41,698 nt of DNA from Deltaproteobacteria bacterium. Lineage in GTDB: Bacteria; Desulfobacterota; Binatia; UBA9968; JAJDTQ01. Made by a program: the position numbers and the translations under genes. The notes beneath the pieces were generated by a model. That model saw only the letters and a program-made list of their open reading frames with translations, made no database searches and was not told the DNA's origin. Every line of letters begins with the position of its first letter. The stretch's first letter is position 1. The stretch covers positions 1-41,698 of the forward strand of contig JAPOPM010000218.1 of the NCBI GenBank assembly GCA_026712905.1, given 5' to 3'. This document shows positions 4,494 to 28,215 of this stretch, piece after piece.

Positions 4494-5609
4494 ATGGCCA
4501 TCAACGCCGACGCGATCGCCGTGCCGGACACGGACTACAGCCTTATCGACTCCGACGCACACGTGGTGGAGACGGAACGGACCTGGGAGTTCATGGACCC
4601 GGAGGATGAGAAGTACCGCCCGGTGCTGGCGCCCCATCCCACCGACCCGCACGTCCAGTGGTGGATCATCGACGGACAGGCCCGCGGCTTGCGGTTCGTC
4701 ACCCTCACCGAGGAGGAGATGGCCGAGCGCTCCCGCGAGCAGGGTCGGGACCTCGTCACCCCCATGGGCTCGCGCGAGGACGACGTGGAGCGGCGCCTGC
4801 GGCACATGGACCGCCTGGGCATCGACGTCCAGGTGGTGTTCCACACCCTGTGGACGGTGCCCACCACCGACCGGCCCGAGGTGGAGCTGGCGCTGTGCAA
4901 GAGCTGGAACCGTTGGGTCGCGGACATGTGGGAACGGGGCAACGGACGGCTCCGGTGGTGCGCGGTGCTGCCCTTGATGAGCATGGACGCCTCGCTGGAG
5001 CTGCTCCACTGGGCCCACGAACACGGCGCCGTGGGCGTAGCCATCCCGCCCATCCTCGGCCGCCGGCTGCCCATCGATCCCTACTTCCACCCGCTCTACG
5101 AGGAGGCCCAGGGCCTCGGCATGGTCATTGCCACGCACATCGGCAACGGCAACCAGGACATCGTCGACATCACGCGGCCGGCCTACGACCCCAACGCCTT
5201 CGGCCTCATGCGCTTCCGCCTCCTGACGGCCGGCTCTTGCGAGGGCCTGCTGGAGAGCCAACTGCCGCTCAAGTTCCCCGACCTGCGCTGGGCCTTCATC
5301 GAGGCCGGTTCCATGTGGTTGCCCTGGATGCTCCACGAGGCCAAGCGCCGCAGCCTCCAGCGCGGGACGCCCCTGCCCGACGACGTGCTGAAGGAGTTCA
5401 ACATCTTCGTCACCTGCCAGAACGACGATCAACTCGCCTACACGTACGACTGCGGGCCGGACAACATCGTCATCGGCAGCGACTACGGCCACTACGACGG
5501 CTCGAGCCAGATGGACGCCCTCCGCGTCATGCGCGCGCGCACGGACGTCGACGAGGAGGTGAAGCGCAAGATCCTGAACGAGAACCCCAGGAGGCTTTGG
5601 CGGTTGTAG
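4494..5609 (+). CDS. Amidohydrolase family 2 (ACMSD-like metal-dependent hydrolase)
   Basis: A 371-residue second member of the same superfamily. It shows LIDSDAHVVE (Asp21-x-His23), HIGNGNQD on a barrel strand, FIEAGSMWLPWML in the region that packs over the active site, and IGSDYGHYDG near the C-terminus with the conserved Asp. The protein ends KILNENPRRLWRL, the typical family tail. GGGAGGA lies 8-9 nt before the ATG. It is divergent from the 3310-4326 homologue, from which it differs clearly, so this is not a recent tandem duplication. It converges on the flavoenzyme gene with only 21 bp between stops. Function beyond hydrolase or decarboxylase is open. Confidence 0.87.
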   Translation: MAINADAIAVPDTDYSLIDSDAHVVETERTWEFMDPEDEKYRPVLAPHPTDPHVQWWIIDGQARGLRFVTLTEEEMAERSREQGRDLVTPMGSREDDVERRLRHMDRLGIDVQVVFHTLWTVPTTDRPEVELALCKSWNRWVADMWERGNGRLRWCAVLPLMSMDASLELLHWAHEHGAVGVAIPPILGRRLPIDPYFHPLYEEAQGLGMVIATHIGNGNQDIVDITRPAYDPNAFGLMRFRLLTAGSCEGLLESQLPLKFPDLRWAFIEAGSMWLPWMLHEAKRRSLQRGTPLPDDVLKEFNIFVTCQNDDQLAYTYDCGPDNIVIGSDYGHYDGSSQMDALRVMRARTDVDEEVKRKILNENPRRLWRL

Positions 5610-5630
5610 GGAAGACCGAGTGCACGGCGA

Positions 5631-6776
5631 TCAGAGGCGCGTCGTCTCGATCTCCAGTCCCAGGACGTGCTTGCCGGCCAGCTCGTAGTTGGTCAGGCGC
5701 ACCTGCTGGTGCTGGCTGATGACGTGGAGGTCCTGGAAGATGCGCTGGATGGCGTTGCCCTCGAATACGGCGGTGGTACCGGAGAGATTGTAGAGGGTTT
5801 CCACCGCCTGGATCGCCTGCCGGATGCAATGGGTGGCGGCCAGGCGCAGGCCGAGGCGCCGGTCCAGGGTGAGGGGGTTCGGCGACACGGCCTCCGACCA
5901 GAGGGCGCCGGCGGCTTCCCTGATGTAGGCCCGCCCCGCCGCGAGCGACGCCTGGATCTGCCCCACCGCCACCTGTACCGGCGACTGGTCCCGCAGCATC
6001 GCCTGCATGGCGTGGGGCGTCTTGGCCCCGGCCAGTTCCAGGAACGCGTCCAGGCACGCCTGAGCCGCGCCCAGGGAGAGCGCGGCGTCACCCGAGGCGA
6101 ACAGCAGCACCAAAGCGATCTTGTACAGCGGACCCGACTCGCGCACGGGACTTCCGAGCTGCCGGATCACCCGCTCCTCCGGGACGAAGGCGCCGTCCAC
6201 GATGAAGTCGTTGGTGCCGGTGCCGCGCATGCCGCGCACGTTCCAGATGTCCACCACCTCCACTTCCGCGGCCGGCACGAACAGGAACTTCTGCACCCGC
6301 TCGCCGTTCGGCTCCGGAAGCCACGCGCGCGCGGCGAACCACGACGCGTGCAGGGAGCCGGAGCTGAAGCGATGGCGGCCGGTGACCCGGTACCCACCCG
6401 GCACCGGCACCGCCTCGGCCGTGGGCATGGACGTGTTGGCGACCACGCAGCGCGGCGTGTCGGTCCAGATTTGCCGGGCCACCTCGTGCTCCATGCGCGC
6501 CGCATAGGTGGCGAAGATCGAGCACTGGTTCACCAGCCACGCGGTGCTGGCGTCGGCCCTGCCCACCTCCTCCATCACGTCCACGTAGGCCGGCAGGTCG
6601 ATCTCGACCCCCTCCAGGGACCGCGGCAGGCCGAGCTTGAACAGGCCGGCGTCCGACAGCGCGTCGAACAGCTCCCGCGGCAGTTCGCGCTCGGTCTCGA
6701 TCCGGTCCGCACAGGCGCGGATTTGCGGCGCCAGCGACCTGGCCGCCTCCAGCATGGAATGGTTCCTGGATGACAT
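5631..6776 (-). CDS. Acyl-CoA dehydrogenase-fold flavoprotein (possible group D flavin monooxygenase)
   Basis: A 381-residue protein with the complete acyl-CoA dehydrogenase architecture: an N-terminal helical domain (about 1-115), a middle beta domain with VTGRHRFSSGSLHASWF (about 135-155) and VRGMRGTGTNDF, and a C-terminal four-helix domain. The GRHRFSSGS-HA pattern and the tail QHQQVRLTNYELAGKH resemble reduced-flavin-dependent oxygenases of the DszC/HpaB type more than true acyl-CoA dehydrogenases. I see no clear acyl-CoA catalytic Glu. Two Met starts are possible, 6776 and 6755; neither has a strong ribosome-binding site. It follows dctM by 45 bp on the same strand and is probably the last gene of the TRAP operon, so it may act on the imported compound. 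Confidence 0.72.
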   Translation of the reverse strand: MSSRNHSMLEAARSLAPQIRACADRIETERELPRELFDALSDAGLFKLGLPRSLEGVEIDLPAYVDVMEEVGRADASTAWLVNQCSIFATYAARMEHEVARQIWTDTPRCVVANTSMPTAEAVPVPGGYRVTGRHRFSSGSLHASWFAARAWLPEPNGERVQKFLFVPAAEVEVVDIWNVRGMRGTGTNDFIVDGAFVPEERVIRQLGSPVRESGPLYKIALVLLFASGDAALSLGAAQACLDAFLELAGAKTPHAMQAMLRDQSPVQVAVGQIQASLAAGRAYIREAAGALWSEAVSPNPLTLDRRLGLRLAATHCIRQAIQAVETLYNLSGTTAVFEGNAIQRIFQDLHVISQHQQVRLTNYELAGKHVLGLEIETTRL

Positions 6777-8139: not shown

Positions 8140-8673
8140 TCAAAGGGAATCCTGGCCCAGGGGACCCGATTCGTCCGGAACCGGCTCGCCGCGTCGCAGC
8201 ACCCCGACGTTGTGCCACGCCTGACGCAGGAACTCGATCACGAGCATGAGGCTCCCGACGCAGATGGGAAGAATGAGCGGCCAGCGATAGACACGCCAGG
8301 CCCTCAACTCGGCGTGGCCGCCCAGATAGGAGTCCCAGGTCTCCAGCGCGCCTTCCCACGCCATCACGGCGGCCGTGGCGGCCGCCACCAGCGACACTAG
8401 AATGCCCAGTATCACGCGCACCCTGGGCCGGAGCCTTTCCACCACGATCTCCACGCGCGTGTGAGCGCGGTCGCGCAGCACCCAGGGCGCCCCCAGGAAG
8501 GTGATGTAAACCAAGGAATATTCGGTGAGATCCACCGCCCAAATGGTAGGGCTGTTAAAGAAGTAGCGCGCCACCACCTCGTACAGCACCGAGAAGGTCA
8601 CCGTCGCCACCAAGAGCCCCGCCAGGTAGGCCGTGCCGTCCAGCAGCGAGTCCCAGGCCCGCTCCAGTGTCAC
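8140..8673 (-). CDS. dctQ: TRAP transporter small permease (DctQ)
   Basis: A 177-residue membrane protein with four predicted spans (starting near YLAGLLVATVTFSVLYEV, PTIWAVDLTEYSLVYITFLG, VILGILVSLVAAATAAVMA and LILPICVGSLMLVIEF). The conserved small-permease signature W..E...Y...W..FLGA..VLR.RAH appears as WAVDLTEYSLVYITFLGAPW followed by VLRDRAHTRVEI. DctQ pairs with DctM and may help dock the receptor. It lies 27 bp downstream of dctP and 7 bp upstream of dctM in one operon. Confidence 0.93.
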   Translation of the reverse strand: MTLERAWDSLLDGTAYLAGLLVATVTFSVLYEVVARYFFNSPTIWAVDLTEYSLVYITFLGAPWVLRDRAHTRVEIVVERLRPRVRVILGILVSLVAAATAAVMAWEGALETWDSYLGGHAELRAWRVYRWPLILPICVGSLMLVIEFLRQAWHNVGVLRRGEPVPDESGPLGQDSL

Positions 8674-8700
8674 TCCCGCACCTTCCTGCCGGCGCGCGCG

Positions 8701-9690
8701 TTACCGGTCTTCCAGGCCGCGGGCCAGTTCCCGGATCTGCTTGCCGTACTCCGGCGAGTTGGGCAGGTACTTCTTCCAGGAGGACTCGTACGCCATCGTG
8801 CGGAAGCGCTTGGCCTCGTCGCCCTTGAGCTCCGTGACCTTCATGCCGTGCTTGTTTACCAGCGCGTCGAGCTCGTTGTCGATGAGCTTCTGGAAGTATC
8901 CCGGCGTCCATTTCTCCACCGCGACGATGGAGTCCGTAATGACCTTCTGCTGGTCCGGCGCAAGCTTGTTCCAGGAGTCCAGGCTCATGTACAGCCACGT
9001 GCGCACCGTCCAGAAGTACGGCTTGAGCATGCAGCAGACTTGCTCGTAGAGCTTGTTTCCGAGGGTGCCGATGACCGGCGAGAAATACCCGTCCACGACC
9101 CCGCGTTCAAGCGCGTTGTAGACCTCCGGCCAAGGCACCTGGATCATGGTGGCGCCCAGGGCCTGTCCCAACGGCAGATAGGTCGGGGTGCTGCGCATCT
9201 TCTTGCCCTTGAAATCGTTGATGCTGCTCACGGGCTTCTTGGTGAAGATGGCGAAACCAACGGGTCCGGAGGTCAGCCCCAGGAACTTGACCCCCGCCCT
9301 TTTCTGGACGATGCCGTCGAAGAACTTGGTGACGCCCGCAGCGCGCAGCTCGGCCGTCTTGCCGACAAAGTATTCGAGAAAGACCCCTTCCGGAATCTTG
9401 GCCGAATCGTATGCGCCGGCACCGTTCAGGATGTCCAGCACCCCGCGCTGCACCAGACCCAGCATCTCGAAGGGTGAGGAGATCTCGGGACCGCCCTTCC
9501 AGTCCACGCGCATCTTGCCACCGGACCTCTTCACGACCTCCTTCTGAAACTGCCAGAAGCCATTGTTGAAGTCGTTGTGCTTCTTCCAGGCGGTGGCGCC
9601 CTTCAGCACGAGATCCGCCGCCGGAGCAGCCGTCGCAACGAAAAGACCGAGGGTGAGCAATACAACGGTACCGCCAAGTGCCCTTCTCAT
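8701..9690 (-). CDS. dctP: TRAP transporter periplasmic solute receptor (DctP)
   Basis: A 329-residue exported receptor. Residues 1-25 form a signal peptide (MRRALGG, hydrophobic TVVLLTLGLFVATA, cleavage near APAA-D). The mature protein has the DctP landmarks WFQKEV-like FWQFQKEVVKRSGG, FEMLGLVQRGVLDI, the R-containing GKKMRSTPTYLPLGQALGA hinge (Arg contacts the substrate carboxylate in known DctP proteins), VPWPEVYNALERGVVDG and a C-terminal helix. GGAAGGT sits 6-7 nt before the ATG. It is the first gene of dctPQM-flavoenzyme, so this TRAP system probably imports a carboxylate, perhaps aromatic given the neighbour. The ligand is inferred, not seen. Confidence 0.93.
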   Translation of the reverse strand: MRRALGGTVVLLTLGLFVATAAPAADLVLKGATAWKKHNDFNNGFWQFQKEVVKRSGGKMRVDWKGGPEISSPFEMLGLVQRGVLDILNGAGAYDSAKIPEGVFLEYFVGKTAELRAAGVTKFFDGIVQKRAGVKFLGLTSGPVGFAIFTKKPVSSINDFKGKKMRSTPTYLPLGQALGATMIQVPWPEVYNALERGVVDGYFSPVIGTLGNKLYEQVCCMLKPYFWTVRTWLYMSLDSWNKLAPDQQKVITDSIVAVEKWTPGYFQKLIDNELDALVNKHGMKVTELKGDEAKRFRTMAYESSWKKYLPNSPEYGKQIRELARGLEDR

Positions 9691-19271: not shown

Positions 19272-20792
19272 TTACTCCAGGACCTGCAACCGACCCTCCA
19301 CCCGCGGCGCGATGACGCCCCGCGCGGTGATGTAGTCGGTCACCTGCGTGGTCATGAGCGTACCCGCGCGGGCCTCGATGAGCGGCGTCTTTCCGGCGAA
19401 GACCGCGTAGCCGTCGCCGCCGCGGGCCATGAAGTCGTTGGTGGCCAGGGTGTACGTGCGGTCGGGGTCCAGGGCGGCACGCTTGTGGCGCACCGCGACC
19501 ACGCGGGAACCGGCCGGCCGCCGGGGATCAAAGTCCACCTCGATACCCGAGACCTGCGGGAACCGGCCCGACCGCTTCTCGATGCCGCTGAAGCCGTTCT
19601 CCAGGGCCGCGCGCAGTTCCCGGCCGGTCAACTCCAGCAACACGGTCTTGTTGCCGAACGGTAGCTCGCTCAGAATGTCCCGGCGCGTCAGCCGGGTCCC
19701 CGCCGGATACACCCTGTCCGCGCGGATGCCGCCGCCGTTGGTCAACGCGACGTCGGCACCCACGGCCACGCGCATGGCGTCGGCCACGAGGTTGCCGATG
19801 GCCGTCTCACGGGTCCGCACCATGGCCCTGCGGCTGTCCAGCTCCGTCTCGGTCACGCCGACCTCGACGTCGAGTTCCCGGGACAACCGGTCCCGGTACG
19901 CCTGAACCGCCTTCGCCAGAACGGGATCGGGGTCCACGCGGCCGGTGTGGACGGCCCGGAAGGCCGGGCTCCACACGAACTTCTTCCTCCCGCGGGACTC
20001 CACCTCGTCCAGGGTGAGGTCGATGACCGTCACCCAGTCCGCCTGCTGGCCCGATTCGGCGAACAGCACGTCGCCGTCGTAGTCCAGCCGCAGCCGGTGG
20101 TCGTCGCCGCTCAGGAGCACGTCCACCGCCCCTTGGCGCAGCAACGCATCGTCCTCGGCGACGTCGGTATGAGCCAGCGCCACCACCAGGTGCGCCCCGG
20201 CCGAGCGCAGAGCCTCGGCCTGTGCCCGGGCCACTTCGACGACCGGCGCGAAGGTGACGCTGCCCGGGCTCGACTTCACCGCCGTGCCCTCAGTGGTGAG
20301 GCCGAAAATCCCCACCTTGTAGCCGTCCACCTCCACCATCAGCGACGCTTGCGCTCCCTTCACGACCTTGCCGTCCGCGTCGATGTTGTTGGCGCCCAGG
20401 ATCGGGAAGGTCGCCTCGGAGAAACGCTGTTTGGCGACCTCCGGGCCGAAGTCGTACTCGTGGTTGCCGATGGCCATGGCCGTCAGACCGATCCGGTTCA
20501 GCAGGTCGATCATGTGCGCGCCCTTGTCGATGCCGGACATCAGCGAGGGCGAGATGGCGTCGCCGGCGAAGGTCACGAGCACGTGCGGCCGGCGCGCGCG
20601 TTCCGTCCGCACCACCGCCGCCAGGCGCGCGATGCCGCCCTGGCCGTCCTTCTCCTCCATGCGGTCGAGGTCGTTGAAATGGACGATGGTGAGGGCCACG
20701 GGCTTGGCGAAGCCAGGACTTCCGAGCAGCACCAAGACGGCCAACGCCAACCCGGCGCAAATCAGGCCACGCCACTTCGGAGCGGTTTTCAT
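19272..20792 (-). CDS. 5'-nucleotidase/UshA-like metallophosphatase with altered metal ligands
   Basis: A 506-residue exported two-domain phosphatase. It has a signal peptide (to about residue 29, PGFA-K), an N-terminal metallophosphoesterase domain (about 31-290), and a C-terminal 5'-nucleotidase substrate domain (about 325-480) with GNLVADAMR, NGGGIR and NDFMARGGDGY. Known relatives release phosphate from nucleotides in the periplasm. The metal site differs from UshA: NDLD has Asp43 where UshA has His43, and SGDDH has Asp230 where the first His of GHxH is usual, while FAGD (Asp78), GNHE (Asn110, His111), His208 and His232 remain. I believe a natural subfamily shares these changes, but cannot check. 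GGAGGGG precedes the ATG, 23 bp after the upstream stop. Confidence 0.85.
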   Translation of the reverse strand: MKTAPKWRGLICAGLALAVLVLLGSPGFAKPVALTIVHFNDLDRMEEKDGQGGIARLAAVVRTERARRPHVLVTFAGDAISPSLMSGIDKGAHMIDLLNRIGLTAMAIGNHEYDFGPEVAKQRFSEATFPILGANNIDADGKVVKGAQASLMVEVDGYKVGIFGLTTEGTAVKSSPGSVTFAPVVEVARAQAEALRSAGAHLVVALAHTDVAEDDALLRQGAVDVLLSGDDHRLRLDYDGDVLFAESGQQADWVTVIDLTLDEVESRGRKKFVWSPAFRAVHTGRVDPDPVLAKAVQAYRDRLSRELDVEVGVTETELDSRRAMVRTRETAIGNLVADAMRVAVGADVALTNGGGIRADRVYPAGTRLTRRDILSELPFGNKTVLLELTGRELRAALENGFSGIEKRSGRFPQVSGIEVDFDPRRPAGSRVVAVRHKRAALDPDRTYTLATNDFMARGGDGYAVFAGKTPLIEARAGTLMTTQVTDYITARGVIAPRVEGRLQVLE

Positions 20793-20815: not shown

Positions 20816-22003
20816 CTACGGACCCGGCAGTTCGTCGAATGCGTGCGACTCGTGCCAGCGCCGGCTGACGATCAGCTTGCCTTCACGGGATTGCCGCTTG
20901 CGAAAGCCCAGCAGGTGGAACAGTTCCACCACGAACCAGCGGGCGACTCGAGGGTCCACCACGAGTGTCCCAGGTGTATCCCGGTATCTTCGAACTCCCG
21001 GCAAGGCCGGCAGAAGGCGCTCGATGCGCAGCCGGCGCAGCCACTTGGCGACCCGCAGCCAGAACGGCCGCACGCGCCGGACCAGGAAGAACCCGTCGGT
21101 GCCCTGCCCCTGGTAGAGCGGCATGAGGATCTGGCCGGACTCGCTTGCGCGGATGGGACCGCGGCGGTCGCGCGCCAGGAGCCGGCCGCGCTCCACCGGC
21201 TGGAAGTTCGTGAACCCGGGCTCCATGACGAATTCGTCGCCGTCCCGGATCACGTGGTGATGGCGGACCTCCACCACCGGCGGAAATCCGTCCGTTTCCT
21301 CCTCGTACGGAACGAGGCCGTCATCGGGGAGCGGAAAGTCCTGCGCGCGGATACACCCCGCGGTGGCGAGCACCGTCCGGATGGCCGCCAGATGGATGGC
21401 CACCGCCGTCGGCGACTCGTGCTGCCCGCCCTCGAAACCCACGGCGACGTACCCCTCTTCTCCCAGGTAGTTGAGGATGGTGCTCTCCAGACGCTCCTCC
21501 AGCCCGAGCACCACCGGAGCGCGCAGCCGGAAACCGAAACGGCGGTTGAGCAGGGTGTCGCCGATGACCACGAAGGGGGTGCCCGCGGCCGAGGTCGTGT
21601 GAAGGTCCAGGCACACCACCGGCCCGCGGCGCTGCGCGAGTTGGTCGTCGAGGCCTGCCAGCAGCTCGCGTTGCTCGCGTTGTTCGGCGGTCATGTCCGT
21701 CGACGACACGCCCGCCCGGACCCGGCGCACGCGCTCCTGCGACCAGGCGCGGTTGAAGTCCTCGTCGACGTAGCGGGCGCCCCGGGCCAGTGCGGCGCGG
21801 TTGCCGGCGAAGCCCACCAGCGCGCCCCGGAAGGGAACGTCGTGTGCGCGCAGGATTTCCAGCGCCCGTTGCAACGCCACCGCGCCGGCGGGCTCGTTGC
21901 CGTGCATGCCGCCGATGCCGATGATCAGCGGTCCGGCGCTGTCGCCGCCGTAGCTGCCCAGGAGCCGCGGGAAGATGCGCCCGGGGGCCGGAGAATCAAC
22001 CAT
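20816..22003 (-). CDS. Succinylglutamate desuccinylase/aspartoacylase-family zinc hydrolase
   Basis: A 395-residue zinc-dependent amide hydrolase related to AstE and aspartoacylase, of M14 carboxypeptidase fold. Zinc ligands are visible as GGMHGNEPAG (His34, Glu37) and DLHTTSA (His135). The substrate-binding NR of the family is in YVDEDFNRAW (Asn84, Arg85), and a likely catalytic Glu is in VGFEGGQHE. The family cleaves N-acyl amino acids at the amide bond. The ATG at 22003 is preferred to a GTG five codons upstream because of a GGTGGAG-like site. It overlaps the end of the ligase/CBS gene by 8 nt. A basic C-terminal extension (about 310-395, Arg/Trp-rich) exceeds the usual length of about 320. 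There is no signal peptide, so it acts in the cytosol. Confidence 0.86.
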   Translation of the reverse strand: MVDSPAPGRIFPRLLGSYGGDSAGPLIIGIGGMHGNEPAGAVALQRALEILRAHDVPFRGALVGFAGNRAALARGARYVDEDFNRAWSQERVRRVRAGVSSTDMTAEQREQRELLAGLDDQLAQRRGPVVCLDLHTTSAAGTPFVVIGDTLLNRRFGFRLRAPVVLGLEERLESTILNYLGEEGYVAVGFEGGQHESPTAVAIHLAAIRTVLATAGCIRAQDFPLPDDGLVPYEEETDGFPPVVEVRHHHVIRDGDEFVMEPGFTNFQPVERGRLLARDRRGPIRASESGQILMPLYQGQGTDGFFLVRRVRPFWLRVAKWLRRLRIERLLPALPGVRRYRDTPGTLVVDPRVARWFVVELFHLLGFRKRQSREGKLIVSRRWHESHAFDELPGP

Positions 22004-23924
22004 CCGCCGCGTCTCCACCGCCGAGTTGCTCCAGGAGACGCGCCGTGAGCTGGAGGATGTCGCTTTCGGTGACGATCCCCACCAATCGCTCCTCCTTCAC
22101 CACCAGCAGGTAGTCGCTCCGGGCCTCGCGCATGCGCGCCACGGCTTCGGAAACCGTGGCCTCCGGCGCGATGGTCACCGGATCCGGCTGCATGACCTCG
22201 CGCACCGGCACCGGCTCGCCGCCCTCCCTGGGCGCCGCCGGAGCCCATTGCCGCAGAGCCTCGAAACAGGAAAGCAGGCCCGCCACCTTGCCGTCCTCGT
22301 GCTCCACGGGCACGTGGCGGATGCGCCGCCAGTCCATGAGGCGGATCACCAGGTCCATGGGTTCGTCCGGGTGGACCGTGATCAGGTCCGTGGTCATGAA
22401 CTCCTCGATGCGCAGGGCCTGGGGCTTGCCGCCGCGGCCCTCCTCGACCTTCGCCAATGGCCATTCGTGCACGGGCGTTCCCTCCCATTGCCGCGCGACG
22501 GTCGCCGCCGTAAGGGCGCTCAGGAGCGCGTCCTGCGTATCCGCGCCGTGCATGTCCGCGAGCGAGCGCAGCAGCCACGAGGCGCCGTTCCGGCGCGACG
22601 CCACCCGCTGTTCGATGACCCCCAGATAGCGGTCCACGTCCGCGGAGTCGAGGCCGGCGGCGCGCAGCCCCTGCCACGCCAGCGGCAGCAACTCCCGGCG
22701 GATGAGCTCGTCCGCGGGCGCCGTGGCGCCGTCCACCCAGGTGAACTGGGCACTCAACCCGCGCTGCGCCGCCGCCAGGAAATTGGCTTCGGCGTCGTGG
22801 AACGGCATGGTTCCGGACACGTCGCCGTACGCCTCCTGGCCGCCCCGCAGCATCCCCAAGAAGAACGCGGCGTTGGCCACCTCGTCCAGGACCGTGGGAC
22901 CCGAAGGCAACACACGGTTCTCGATGCGTATGTGCGCCTTGCCCTCGCCCGTACCGAAGCAGGCGCGGTTCCAGCGGTAGACCGTACCTGTATGGGTGCG
23001 CAGGGCCGGGAGCGTCGGCAGTCCTCCCTGTGCCAGCACATCGAGAGAGTCCTCGTCCAGGGGCGCCCCCAACAACACCCGGAAGCGCGCCAGGTCTTCC
23101 TGGATCAGCTCCAGGATGGACTCCCGCACCCACTTCTGGCCGAAGCTCACGCGGGCGGCGCGCTCGCGCATGTGATGGCCCGCCCGGCGCGTGTCGATGG
23201 ACTGCTGGAACAGCGGAATGCGCGTCTCGCGCCACAGCCGGCGGCCGAAGAGCAACGGCGAGTTGGCCGCCGCCGCCAGCAGCGGAGCGGTCACGAGCTG
23301 CGCCAGGTTGTAGCACTGGGCGAACTCCGCCGGCTCCACCTGGTAGTGCACCTGGAAGCTGGTGCAGCCGGATTCCAGCATCACGGAGTCGTGCCGGATG
23401 CTCAACTCGTCGGCGCCCTTGAGGCGGAACTCGTAGTCGCCGCCGCGAAGCTGCGTCAGCATCGCGTTGAGAGCCCGGTAGCGCGGCCGGGGGGTCATGT
23501 GCGCCATGGCCAGGTCGGACTTGCGCAGGGTCGGCAGGATGCCCACCAGAACCACCTCGGCGCCGTGCTCGTGGGCCGCCTCCCTGAGCCGCCTCAGCGC
23601 GGAATCGAGCTGCCCCTCGAGCCGGCTCAGACAGTCGCCGCGGAACAACAGCGGATCGAGGTTGATCTCCAGGTTGAAGAGCCCCAGCTCCGTGGTGTAG
23701 TGAGGGTCGCCCACCCGCTCCAGCAGCTCCATGGCCAGCATGGCCGGGCGCCGCGCCGCATCCACCAGGAAGAGCTCCTGCTCCGCGCCGATGCGGTGCA
23801 CCCCGGTCTCGATCATGCCCCCGTCGAGCATCCGCTCCAGCGCCTGCACGTCGCGCAGGAGGTGCGCGATGAAGGAACGCAGCTCGGCCGCGTCCTCGTC
23901 GGGTTGTACGTCCTGGCTACCCAT
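21996..23924 (-). CDS. Glutamate-cysteine ligase 2-like enzyme fused to a CBS-domain pair
   Basis: A 642-residue fusion. Residues about 25-430 belong to the GCS2 (YbdK/EgtA-type) carboxylate-amine ligase fold, with GAEQELFLVD (nucleotide and metal site), ELGLFNLEINLDPL, and HIRIENRVLPSGPT. Such enzymes use ATP to join a carboxylate, usually the gamma-carboxyl of glutamate, to an amine. Residues about 506-555 and 574-625 are two CBS motifs (MTTDLITVHPDE and VMQPDPVTIAPEATV), which pair to bind adenine nucleotides and regulate attached enzymes. AGGAA lies 6 nt before the ATG. It overlaps the aspartoacylase-like gene by 8 nt. The substrates are unknown; glutathione synthesis is not implied. Confidence 0.84.
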   Translation of the reverse strand: MGSQDVQPDEDAAELRSFIAHLLRDVQALERMLDGGMIETGVHRIGAEQELFLVDAARRPAMLAMELLERVGDPHYTTELGLFNLEINLDPLLFRGDCLSRLEGQLDSALRRLREAAHEHGAEVVLVGILPTLRKSDLAMAHMTPRPRYRALNAMLTQLRGGDYEFRLKGADELSIRHDSVMLESGCTSFQVHYQVEPAEFAQCYNLAQLVTAPLLAAAANSPLLFGRRLWRETRIPLFQQSIDTRRAGHHMRERAARVSFGQKWVRESILELIQEDLARFRVLLGAPLDEDSLDVLAQGGLPTLPALRTHTGTVYRWNRACFGTGEGKAHIRIENRVLPSGPTVLDEVANAAFFLGMLRGGQEAYGDVSGTMPFHDAEANFLAAAQRGLSAQFTWVDGATAPADELIRRELLPLAWQGLRAAGLDSADVDRYLGVIEQRVASRRNGASWLLRSLADMHGADTQDALLSALTAATVARQWEGTPVHEWPLAKVEEGRGGKPQALRIEEFMTTDLITVHPDEPMDLVIRLMDWRRIRHVPVEHEDGKVAGLLSCFEALRQWAPAAPREGGEPVPVREVMQPDPVTIAPEATVSEAVARMREARSDYLLVVKEERLVGIVTESDILQLTARLLEQLGGGDAADG

Positions 23925-24080: not shown

Positions 24081-24578
24081 TTGTGTATCCTGGAGGACAC
24101 CCTGCTCGCCCGCCGGCTTCCCGCCTACCGCAGGCGCCGCAAGCGTCGCGTCATCAGGGCTCCCAAGTTCTACTTCTACGACGTCGGCGTCGTGAACCGG
24201 CTTGCCCGGCGGGGTGAGTTGACGCCCGGCTCCGAGTTGTACGGCAAGGCGTTCGAGAACTGGATCTTCCACGAGCTGTCGGCGTTCGTCTCCTATCGCG
24301 AACTCGACGAAGATCTCTCGTATTGGCGACTCCCCAGCGGTATCGAAGTGGACTTTATCCTCGGCGACGTGCGCCTCGCGGTGGAGGCCAAGGCCAGCCG
24401 CAGGATCACCCGCGACCACCTGAAGGGGCTGCGTACCCTCAAGGAGGAACATCCGGACGTCCAGCACCGCATCGTGGTGTCGCTGGAACCGCGCGCCCGC
24501 CGAACGGATGACGGCATCGACATCCTCCCGGCGGCCACGTTCGCCCAGCGCCTTTGGCGCGGCGAGTTCGCGCAATAG
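24081..24578 (+). pseudogene. 5'-truncated ATPase of the AAA/DUF4143 family (C-terminal domain only)
   Basis: The 165 codons match the C-terminal DUF4143 domain of a roughly 400-residue AAA-type ATPase: ILEDTLLARRLPAYRRR, APKFYFYDVGVVNRL, GKAFENWIFHEL, LSYWRLPSGIEVDFILGD, VEAKASRRI and the tail DDGIDILPAATF. The N-terminal Walker A/B ATPase domain and the winged-helix segment are missing. Upstream the frame stays open only to a TGA at 24021-24023, and the intervening codons (ending LSESGL) show only faint resemblance. The TTG at 24081 is the first candidate start, with no ribosome-binding site. Homologues of this family are widely transferred between bacteria and archaea, so this looks like a decaying acquired gene. 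The frame has no internal stop, so the loss may be recent. Confidence 0.8.
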
Positions 24579-24649: not shown

Positions 24650-25852
24650 TCACCCCTTCCCCGCACCCCCCGGAAAGAGCAGCCGGCGCGTGTGCCGCGC
24701 GATCATCAGGTCCTCGTCGGTGGGGATGACGCGTACGGCGCAGCGGCTCCGGGGAGTGCTGATGGTGCCGGAGTGGCCCTGGTTGCGTTCGGGGTCGATC
24801 TCGATGCCGAGGTGGGCGAGTCCTTCGCAGATTTGTTGGCGGACCGGGGCGGCGCGCTCGCCGATGCCGCCGGTGAAGACCAGGGTGTCGAGGCCGCCGA
24901 GGGCGGCGGCCAGGGCGCCGATGTGCTTGCGCGCCTGGTAGCAGAAGAGATCCACGGCCAGGGCCGCTTGCGGGTTCTGCGCGCGCGCCTCCAGCAGGGT
25001 CTTCATGTCGGGGCTCAGGCCGGAGACGCCCAGCAGGCCGGCGTCGCGGCTCACCAATCGCTCGACCTCGGCCGCGCTCCAGCCGCGCTCGCGCATCAGG
25101 TGGATGAGGACCCCGGGGTCGAGGTCGCCGCTACGCGTTCCCATCATGAGGCCGCCGGCCGGGGTAAAGCCCATGGTGGTATCCACCGGTATGCCGTCGC
25201 GCACCGCCGCCATGCTGGCGCCGTTCCCCAGATGCGCGATGACGACCCGGCCGCGCGCCGCGTCCCCCAGTGCCTCCAGGACGTACTCGTAGGACAGGCC
25301 GTGGAAACCGTAGCGGCGCACGCCTGCCTGCCACAGGGCGGCGGGCAGCGCGAAACGCTGGGCCAGTTCCGGCAGGCGCCGGTGGAAGGCCGTATCGAAG
25401 CACGCCGCCTGCGGGAGATCCGGGAAACGCGCGGCCACGGCCTCGATGCCCGCGACGGCGCCGGGCAGATGCAGTGGCGCCAAGGGGACGAGGGCGCGAA
25501 GATCCGCCAGCAGGCGCGCGTCCACGCGCTCGGGAGCCGTGTGGTCCGCTCCACCGTGCACCACCCGGTGCCCGACGGCGCCGGGCTCCGGCAGGCGCAA
25601 TCGGGCGGCCACGCCGAAGACCGCGTCCACCGCGGCCTCATGGTCGGGGAAATCTTCCTTCCGCTCCAGGAGAAGGGACCGGCCTCGATCCGCGCCGCGC
25701 ACCCACAGGAGCCCCTCCGCCAAGCCGATGCGCTCAACCGCGCCGGACACCAGCAACGTCTCGCCCGCGGGTTCCAACTTGTAGAGCGCGAACTTGAGGG
25801 AAGAGGAGCCGCTGTTGAGTGACAGAATGGAGATCGCCGGATCCACTCCCAT
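24650..25852 (-). CDS. ackA: Acetate kinase
   Basis: A 400-residue cytosolic acetokinase that makes ATP and acetate from acetyl phosphate. The family blocks are complete: ILSLNSGSSSLKFAL at the N-terminus, GHRVVHGG, FDTAFH, RRYGFHGLSYEYV, IAHLGNGAS, TTMGFTPAGGLMMGTRSGDL and VFTGGIGE. The ATG at 25852 shares one base with the phosphoketolase stop (TGATG), so translation is coupled; a GTG four codons upstream is less likely. Directly downstream of phosphoketolase it would convert that enzyme's acetyl phosphate product into ATP. Propionate kinase activity is possible but less likely in this context. Confidence 0.95.
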   Translation of the reverse strand: MGVDPAISILSLNSGSSSLKFALYKLEPAGETLLVSGAVERIGLAEGLLWVRGADRGRSLLLERKEDFPDHEAAVDAVFGVAARLRLPEPGAVGHRVVHGGADHTAPERVDARLLADLRALVPLAPLHLPGAVAGIEAVAARFPDLPQAACFDTAFHRRLPELAQRFALPAALWQAGVRRYGFHGLSYEYVLEALGDAARGRVVIAHLGNGASMAAVRDGIPVDTTMGFTPAGGLMMGTRSGDLDPGVLIHLMRERGWSAAEVERLVSRDAGLLGVSGLSPDMKTLLEARAQNPQAALAVDLFCYQARKHIGALAAALGGLDTLVFTGGIGERAAPVRQQICEGLAHLGIEIDPERNQGHSGTISTPRSRCAVRVIPTDEDLMIARHTRRLLFPGGAGKG

Positions 25853-28215
25853 CAGCGGGACCACGTCCAGTGGCGAATCTCCGGCAGGTCCTCGCCGTAG
25901 CGGACGATGTGCTGCCGGTGGTCGACGAGCTTGTCGCGCACCGCCTGCTTGGCGTAGGCGGCGATGTTTCCCAGCCTTGGGACCCGGTCGATGACCGCCT
26001 CCATTAGGTGGAAGCGGTCCAGCTCGTTGAGCACGGTCATGTCGAACGGCGTCGTGGTGGCGCCTTCCTCCTTGTAGCCATGCACGTGGAGGTTGGCGTG
26101 GTTGGTGCGCCGGTACGTGAGGCGATGGATCAGGTAGGGATAGCCGTGATAGGCGAAGATCACGGGCCGGTCCTTGGTGAAGAGCACGTCGAATTCATGG
26201 TGGTCGAGCCCGTGGGGGTGGTCCTCCGAGTGCTGCAGCTTCATCAGGTCCACCACGTTCACCACGCGGATCTTCAGGTCGGGAACGTGGTCGCGCAAGA
26301 GGTCCACCGCCGCCAGGGTCTCGATGGTGGGGACGTCGCCGCAGCAGGCCATGACCACGTCGGGCTCGGCACCCTCGTCGGTGCTCGCCCATTTCCAGAT
26401 GCCGATGCCCGCGTTGCAGTGCTTGACCGCCGCGTCCATGTCCAGCCACTGAGGCTCGGGCTGCTTGCCCGCGACGATGACGTTGACGTAGTCGCGGCTG
26501 CGCAGGCAGTGGTCGGTGACCGAGAGCAGCGTGTTGGCGTCGGGCGGAAAGTACACCCGGATGACGTCGGCCTTCTTGTCGGCCACGTGATCGCCGAAGC
26601 CCGGCTCCTGGTGGCTGAAGCCGTTGTGGTCCTGGCGCCACCCGTGGGACGTCAGCAGGTAGTTCAGGGAGGCGATGGGGCGCCGCCAGGGGATGTGGCT
26701 CCGGGTGGTCTTGAGCCACTTGGCGTGCTGGTTGAACATGGAATCCACCACGTGCACGAAGGCCTCGTAGGTGGAGAAAAAGCCGTGCCGCCCGGTGAGC
26801 AGGTACCCTTCGAGCCACCCTTGGCAGGTGTGTTCGCTCAGGATCTCCATCACCCGGCCGTCGGGGGCCAGGTGGTCGTCCTCGGGGAGGGTCTCCGCCA
26901 TCCACACGCGGTCGGTGACCTCGAACACGGCGCCGAGGCGGTTGGACGCGGTCTCGTCGGGGCCGAACACGCGGAAGTTGCGGCTCTCCAGGTTGCGCTT
27001 CATGACGTCCCGCAGGAAGCGCCCCATGACACGGGTGCTCTCGCCCACGGTGCCGCCGGGCCGCGGCACCGCCACGGCGTAGTCCCGGAAGTCCGGCATC
27101 CTCAAGTCCTTGAGCAGCAGGCCGCCGTTGGCGTGGGGGTTGGCGCCCATGCGCCGCGTCCCCTCGGGCGCCAGCGCCGCCAGCTCCGGCGCGAACCGCC
27201 CGGTCTCGTCGAAGAGCTCCTCCGGGCGGTAGCTCTTCATCCACTCCTCCAGGAGGCGCACGTGGTCCGGCTTGGCCGCCAACTCGGCAAGCGGTACCTG
27301 GTGGGAGCGCCAATAGCCCTCGGCCTTGAGCCCGTCCACCTCCTTGGGGCCGGTCCACCCCTTGGGGGTGCGCAGGACGATCATGGGCCAGCGCGGGCGT
27401 GTGGTCACGCCGCCGGCGCGCGCCTCCTCCTGGATGGCGCGGATCCGGTCCGCGACCGTGTCCAGGGTCCCGGCCATGAGCCGGTGCATCTCGGAGGGAT
27501 CCGAGCCTTCCACGAAATACGGCTCGTAGCCGTAGCCCACGAACAGGCTCTCCAGCTCGTCGCGGCCGATGCGTGCGAGGATCGTGGGATTGGCGATCTT
27601 GTACCCATTCAGATGGAGGACGGGCAGCACGGCGCCGTCCCGCGCGGGGTTGAGGAACTTGTTGGAGTGCCACGCCGCCGCCAGCGGCCCGGTCTCGGCC
27701 TCGCCGTCGCCCACCACGCAGGCGACGATCAGGTCCGGGTTGTCCAGCGCCGCGCCGTAGGCGTGGGAAACCGCGTAGCCCAGCTCACCCCCCTCGTGGA
27801 TGGAACCGGGGGTCTCCGGGGCCACGTGGCTGGGGATGCCGCCGGGAAACGAGAACTGCTTGAAGAGCAGGCGCATCCCCGCCTCGTCCCGGGACACGTC
27901 CGGGTAGACCTCGCTGTAGGTCCCCTCCAGGTAGGTGTTGGCCACGAGCCCGGGGCCGCCGTGGCCCGGGCCGGCCACGTAGATGACGTCCAGATCACGC
28001 GCCCGGATCACGCGGTTCAGATGCGCGTAGATGAAGTTCAGCCCGGGGGTGGTACCCCAATGGCCCAGGAGCCGCGGCTTGATGTGGGCGGCGGCCAGCG
28101 GCTCCTTCAGCAACGGGTTGTCGAGCAGATAGATCTGCCCGACGGAAAGGTAGTTGGCGGCGCGCCAGTAGGCGTGGAGCGCCTGCAACTCGGCTTCGGA
28201 GACCGCGCCGAACAT
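25852..28215 (-). CDS. xfp: Phosphoketolase (xylulose-5-phosphate/fructose-6-phosphate)
   Basis: A 787-residue thiamine-diphosphate enzyme of normal length. It splits xylulose 5-phosphate (and in many members fructose 6-phosphate) with phosphate into acetyl phosphate and a triose or tetrose phosphate. Visible signatures are GHWGTTPG (51-58), the GPGHGGPG loop (82-89), the thiamine-diphosphate motif GDGEAETG (169-176), [28 protein letters not shown] in the second half, and [15 protein letters not shown]. The C-terminus runs to WTWSR. It starts 3 bp after the dehydrogenase stop and is coupled to ackA, which makes a compact three-gene unit. Confidence 0.96.

Follow-up and report, generated by a model that had tools for sequence, protein, structure and literature searches.

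What would an enzyme that forms amide bonds and an enzyme that breaks them do as immediate neighbors? The question is posed by a gene pair in the window (the whole stretch of DNA analyzed, 41,698 nucleotides of a deltaproteobacterial contig), in which a ligase of the GCS2 superfamily, extended by a pair of CBS domains, is followed by a zinc hydrolase resembling AstE and aspartoacylase (Table 1). The answer favored here, with a probability of about 0.58, is a coupled two-enzyme module: a CBS-gated ligase would build a conjugate, and the zinc hydrolase would cleave that conjugate or a derivative of it. The gene pair is real and conserved, and it is probably functional as a two-enzyme module.

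Table 1. Features of the ligase-hydrolase locus (positions are those of the window)
Feature	Position	Strand	Details
GCS2-CBS ligase gene	23924-21996	minus	ATG at 23924, stop at 21996, 642 aa
GCS2-fold carboxylate-amine ligase domain	22440..23924	minus	residues 1-495; Pfam, predicted model, conservation
C-terminal CBS domain pair of ligase	22029..22412	minus	residues about 505-632; Pfam CBS, AcuB fold match, conservation
Reading-frame overlap, ligase/hydrolase	21996..22003	minus	8 nt
AstE/aspartoacylase-like zinc hydrolase gene	22003-20816	minus	ATG at 22003, 395 aa

The gene pair and its two products

Both reading frames lie where the first-pass annotation had placed them, with the ligase gene as the upstream member of the pair and the hydrolase gene downstream. 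The short overlap that it described holds with the hydrolase ATG at 22003, which is preceded by a Shine-Dalgarno-like GGTGGAG; an in-frame GTG at 22018, further upstream, would as the start lengthen the overlap to 23 nt. In close relatives the two genes overlap by 1, 8 or 11 nt or are set apart by 6-19 nt (a single gap measures 274 nt), a pattern of overlaps and short gaps that is as expected of translationally coupled genes. Just upstream of the ligase gene lies a DUF4143 fragment (24081-24578, plus strand) that matches only positions 52-160 of the 160-position profile and seems to be a remnant that has lost its N-terminal part. The genes for acetate kinase and phosphoketolase (24650-28215, minus strand), which overlap by 13 nt, form a phosphoketolase shunt unit. 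An UshA-like 5'-nucleotidase gene (19272-20792, minus strand) starts 23 nt past the hydrolase stop and is conserved in the window's genus only. A wider operon was considered and rejected: the nucleotidase and a transglycosylase follow the pair only in that genus, and different genes do so in other lineages.

Structure prediction, which had been suggested at first pass for both proteins, yields the folds expected (AlphaFold pLDDT 91.2 for the ligase and 90.3 for the hydrolase). The ligase model superimposes on YbdK with a Z score of 39.8 (2.3 Å over 344 residues), and its further matches are plant GCL (2GWC, Z 33.8) and yeast GCL (Z 28.6), after which PafA and Dop rank at Z 17-22. The Pfam GCS2 match (PF04107, 37.6 bits against a cut-off of 21) covers the N-terminal third of the profile, and a PDB sequence search with the ligase profile returned no GCS2 chain; the relation is visible through fold and Pfam. 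Aligned with the YbdK of the same genome (hhalign E 1.8e-6), the family profile matches along the domain, and GhExE, the acidic residues, QxH and ExR fall into register. Carboxylate-amine ligases are defined by GhExE, acidic residues on strands 2 and 3, [HQ]x[NH], ExR and a set of arginines (PMC2588565), and the window ligase has all of these motifs. The corresponding residues, G46-x-E48-x-E50, E79, E86, N88, Q191-x-H193, R235, R258, R320, R333 and E335-x-R337, are invariant or conserved in 61 of 62 in an alignment of 62 relatives; the Asp of the superfamily's ExRx2D is replaced by Pro (ExRx2P). Alignment with YbdK thus leaves the active-site residues intact, the loss of which the first-pass annotation had named as one of two observations that would speak against it.

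By its sequence, then, the ligase is a divergent member of the GCS2 superfamily with an intact active site. It falls outside the YbdK, EgtA and GshA subfamilies by NCBIfam score and far below the cut-offs of all characterized subfamilies, YbdK (19.6 against 176.4) and EgtA (31.0 against 370.8) among them. Since the window's genome also carries a canonical GshA (TIGR01436, 470 bits against 463) as well as a ligase of the YbdK family, the GCS2-CBS ligase is a third paralogue. YbdK-type ligases are widespread, and for few of them is the physiological substrate known. Dop, a hydrolase that has the ligase fold, shows that the fold is in itself no proof of ligation; ATP-dependent amide formation is a highly probable chemistry for the window ligase.

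Pfam locates the GCS2 domain and two CBS copies (90.5 bits, 8.5e-26, in two stretches) within one 642-aa reading frame, which bears out the fusion perceived at first pass. The predicted CBS pair matches AcuB with bound AMP/ADP at Z 19. The Thr/Asp pattern of ribose binding, G616xxT619xxD622, is confined to CBS2, where D622 is kept in 42 of 58 aligned domains; CBS1 of the window protein lacks the ribose-binding Asp. One canonical nucleotide site is therefore predicted, and the odds seem a shade better than even that the pair binds an adenine nucleotide there and gates the ligase according to energy state. In one genus of a related family, a separate CBS-domain reading frame lies just past the hydrolase (L041, 2292-2699, plus strand; L042, 1058-1468, minus strand).

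The hydrolase was correctly recognized from the outset as an AstE/aspartoacylase-like zinc enzyme: it matches Pfam AstE_AspA_cat (PF24827) with 51.1 bits against a cut-off of 25 and has the zinc ligands H34, E37 and H135 (HxxE...H), the catalytic E191 and the substrate residues R77, N84 and R85. These active-site residues are invariant in 36 relatives except for one H34L. That exception (L072, 3220-4362, plus strand), in which a zinc-ligand His has become Leu, is either a sequencing error or an inactive copy. Long forms of the hydrolase carry an additional, conserved segment at the C terminus, which is absent from short forms. The nearest folds are AstE and EutE/DoeB (both at Z about 22), AspA (Z 20.5) and CphZ; amide cleavage is, on fold and residues, a chemistry predicted with the same high probability as ligation by its partner. 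R77, N84, R85 and E191 are the equivalents of ASPA R63, N70, R71 and E178. In ASPA, R168 has been linked to selectivity for aspartate (PMC10998430); no conserved Arg is found at or near that position in the 36 hydrolase sequences. The combination fits a substrate that is an N-acyl amino acid other than aspartate. Scores below the equivalog cut-offs for aspartoacylase (43.3 against 180 bits) and succinylglutamate desuccinylase (27.8 against 305.65) place the hydrolase outside both families. It is best regarded as a candidate N-acyl amino acid amidase that is not specific for aspartate, and N-acetylaspartate is an unlikely substrate.

The presence of plant and yeast GCL among the closest folds could point to a role in glutathione or thiol metabolism, with the ligase as a lineage-specific glutamate-cysteine ligase and the hydrolase recycling γ-glutamylcysteine or its conjugates. 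The genome of Lutimonas, which has a strong GshB and no other GCS2 match, is consistent with such a role, as is the phytochelatin-synthase-like reading frame near one orphan hydrolase (see below). This role is quite improbable: the window's genome already has YbdK and, scoring above the TIGR01436 cut-off, a canonical GshA, and GshB (PF02955) is missing in 5 of the 9 module carriers tested, the window's genome included. A glutathione role in general is, for these same two reasons, unlikely. The genome that has a canonical GshA and lacks a PF02955 GshB match (G000) is 98.9% complete.

Linkage of ligase and hydrolase across genomes

A GCS2-CBS gene lies next to 19 of the 20 close hydrolase homologues (the window's own among them) found in the window's class; in the exception, genome G001, the hydrolase is kept and the ligase region is locally replaced. 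PIN-domain and integrase-like genes occupy the place of the lost region (L055, 5774-9504), and a partial phytochelatin-synthase-like reading frame (8298-8780, minus strand) lies near the orphan hydrolase. The best 80 ligase loci from a scan of named genomes extend the family to about ten phyla: Acidobacteria, Planctomycetes, Gemmatimonadetes, Balneolaceae and Rhodothermales, Bacteroidetes, Chlorobi, Calditrichaeota, Myxococcota, Verrucomicrobia and Proteobacteria. Of the 80 loci, 79 show the CBS pair (partially at L156, where a run of N interrupts it); at L079 the contig stops after the ligase domain. An 868-aa frame at L156 that would fuse ligase and hydrolase was rejected, because it crosses that assembly gap. 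In Balneolaceae, two tandem GCS2-CBS genes precede the hydrolase at L101, L103 and L110.

The hydrolase is adjacent to the ligase at 31 of 69 testable named loci (those with the hydrolase present or with at least 1 kb of sequence downstream of the ligase). Among 28 genomes with a stand-alone ligase, 11 encode a strong hydrolase homologue at another site that has no ligase within 1.5 kb, and 17 are without this hydrolase subfamily altogether, many of the assemblies being incomplete. The dependence is clearest in the class of Rhodohalobacter, which is distant from that of the window: the ligase occurs in 104 of 145 genomes and the hydrolase in 55, all of which also carry the ligase; 55 of the 56 hydrolase genes stand directly behind it, and the 56th begins a contig. 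The hydrolase is found in none of the 41 ligase-less genomes (Fisher p 3.4e-11, uncorrected for relatedness). On the ligase tree adjacency is scattered, with at least 13 changes, and protein distances of ligase and hydrolase are correlated (r 0.84 over 27 pairs, reached in 0 of 10000 permutations), in part through shared descent of the host species. In the window's own phylum, a sample of 395 genomes has ligase relatives in 6 and this hydrolase in 1. The sole plasmid match, a hydrolase copy in Bernardetia, is unlinked to a ligase; a search of a phage collection gave no match.

Conservation of the pairing far exceeds what chance would give. The ligase does occur on its own; the hydrolase hardly ever does. 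The adjacency count for GCS2-CBS fusions that the first-pass annotation had proposed thus yields a neighborhood kept in many phyla, and the absence of conservation that it had named as its potential undoing did not materialize. That about half of the ligases stand alone might suggest two genes that merely lie side by side with no function in common, a notion that the linkage counts in the class of Rhodohalobacter (nearly every hydrolase gene linked, none in ligase-less genomes) bring close to refutation and that scarcely retains any probability.

A second, independent AstE-like branch points the same way. Six genomes of the window's phylum hold a sister branch of the ligase, about 500 residues long and devoid of CBS domains. 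Four of these are testable, the sequence of the other two (L219 and L220) ending too early; in three (L074, L075 and L218) the ligase gene is directly followed or overlapped by an AstE-like gene whose divergence puts it beyond the reach of the main hydrolase family profile, and at L073 there is no AstE-like gene downstream. A fused 835-aa protein at L218 was rejected, since the hydrolase frame there runs on across the ligase gene in a shadow frame. The partnership is therefore independent of the CBS fusion: the window ligase carries the CBS pair, but pairing with a hydrolase does not require it.

A proposed make-and-break conjugate

In the scheme proposed here, the ligase would activate a carboxylate with Mg-ATP (most likely, as in its relatives, the γ-carboxylate of glutamate) and would join it to an amine, probably the α-amine of an amino acid, under control of the C-terminal CBS pair, which would probably bind an adenine nucleotide and respond to energy state. 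The zinc hydrolase would cleave the amide of this conjugate or of a close derivative, and a conjugate pool would thereby be built and drawn down. Glutamate is put forward as acyl donor by analogy, for a ligase that lies far under the cut-offs of the characterized subfamilies. The dependence of hydrolase on ligase, and not the reverse, supports a hydrolase acting on the ligase product or a derivative; we infer a shared product, and the balance leans, if not heavily, toward both enzymes acting on the same conjugate. The earlier proposal of synthesis and turnover of an amide is upheld to the extent that this one-way dependence fits synthesis followed by cleavage. Pointing the other way are the ligases without an adjacent hydrolase (about half), the hydrolase without a ligase in G001 and the unlinked plasmid copy of Bernardetia.

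One-way dependence would also be expected of a last step. In a sequential pathway the ligase would add a glutamyl-like protecting group, enzymes encoded elsewhere would carry out modifications, and the hydrolase would deprotect last, in the manner of PuuA and PuuD in putrescine breakdown. In Phycisphaerales (L118), a class-I glutamine-amidotransferase-like gene with catalytic motifs (5229-5954, plus strand) lies 47 nt upstream of a ligase that has no adjacent AstE-like hydrolase; it is possibly a replacement amidase and, being reminiscent of γ-glutamyl thiol hydrolases, is in keeping with such a pathway. In Puu-type operons, intermediate enzymes do recur beside ligase and hydrolase; no intermediate enzyme recurs beside the present pair in any lineage. 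Direct synthesis and cleavage is preferred, and a protect-modify-release pathway is regarded as doubtful.

When the nearest genes were clustered and scanned with Pfam, no further neighbor recurred across lineages; the genes found there are lineage-specific sets (ScpB, SRAP, PqiA, transhydrogenase, TPR). At L114 an M28 peptidase gene is immediately adjacent. The fold that the ligase has in common with PafA and Dop allows one to envisage protein or peptide tagging with the hydrolase as tag remover, which becomes very improbable when no small conserved tag gene is seen near the pair (among neighboring reading frames of at least 150 aa and in the Pfam scan of nearest neighbors).

A dedicated hydrolase that accompanies the ligase in one phylum after another provides a second handle on the product: the compound formed by the ligase is expected to be its substrate. 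The CBS pair may indicate energy control at the synthesis step. A broader proposition is more tentative and falls short of even odds: a widespread conjugate cycle in about ten phyla, in which a nucleotide-gated ligase would lock an amine or amino acid into a glutamyl-type amide for storage or protection and a dedicated zinc amidase would set it free. The pool so formed would be a previously unnamed one, and the gating domain would be an addition, in one branch, to an older partnership of ligase and hydrolase. Once found, the compound would be a conserved metabolite new to many environmental phyla, sponge-associated bacteria included.

Comparison with known systems

The pair of GCS2-CBS ligase and AstE-like hydrolase is named in no publication found in our literature search, whose coverage did not extend to the 2009 amidoligase survey, which may list it. 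Iyer and Aravind reportedly described ligase and amidase/peptidase neighborhoods of the amidoligase type. Taken singly, each component has close counterparts. The ligase has the fold and all the superfamily catalytic motifs of YbdK (1R8G), plant GCL (2GWC) and EgtA, and differs from them in its extra C-terminal CBS pair, its ExRx2P and its zinc-hydrolase partner. With the energy sensors AcuB, IMPDH and AMPK it shares the CBS-pair fold and the T-x-x-D ribose pattern of CBS2; unlike theirs, the CBS pair is fused to a ligase, with no Asp in CBS1 and a single predicted site. The hydrolase shares with AstE, aspartoacylase, EutE (DoeB) and CphZ the fold, the zinc ligands, the catalytic Glu and the carbonyl- and carboxylate-binding Arg/Asn/Arg, and departs from AstE and ASPA in its sub-cut-off equivalog scores and in having no Arg at the R168 position. 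The arrangement as a whole most resembles the amidoligase-type neighborhoods RimK-RimB, PuuA-PuuD and PafA-Dop, in which an amide-forming ligase is likewise genetically tied to an amide-cleaving enzyme; what sets the window pair apart from these is the identity of the partners, a GCS2-CBS ligase and an AstE-like hydrolase.
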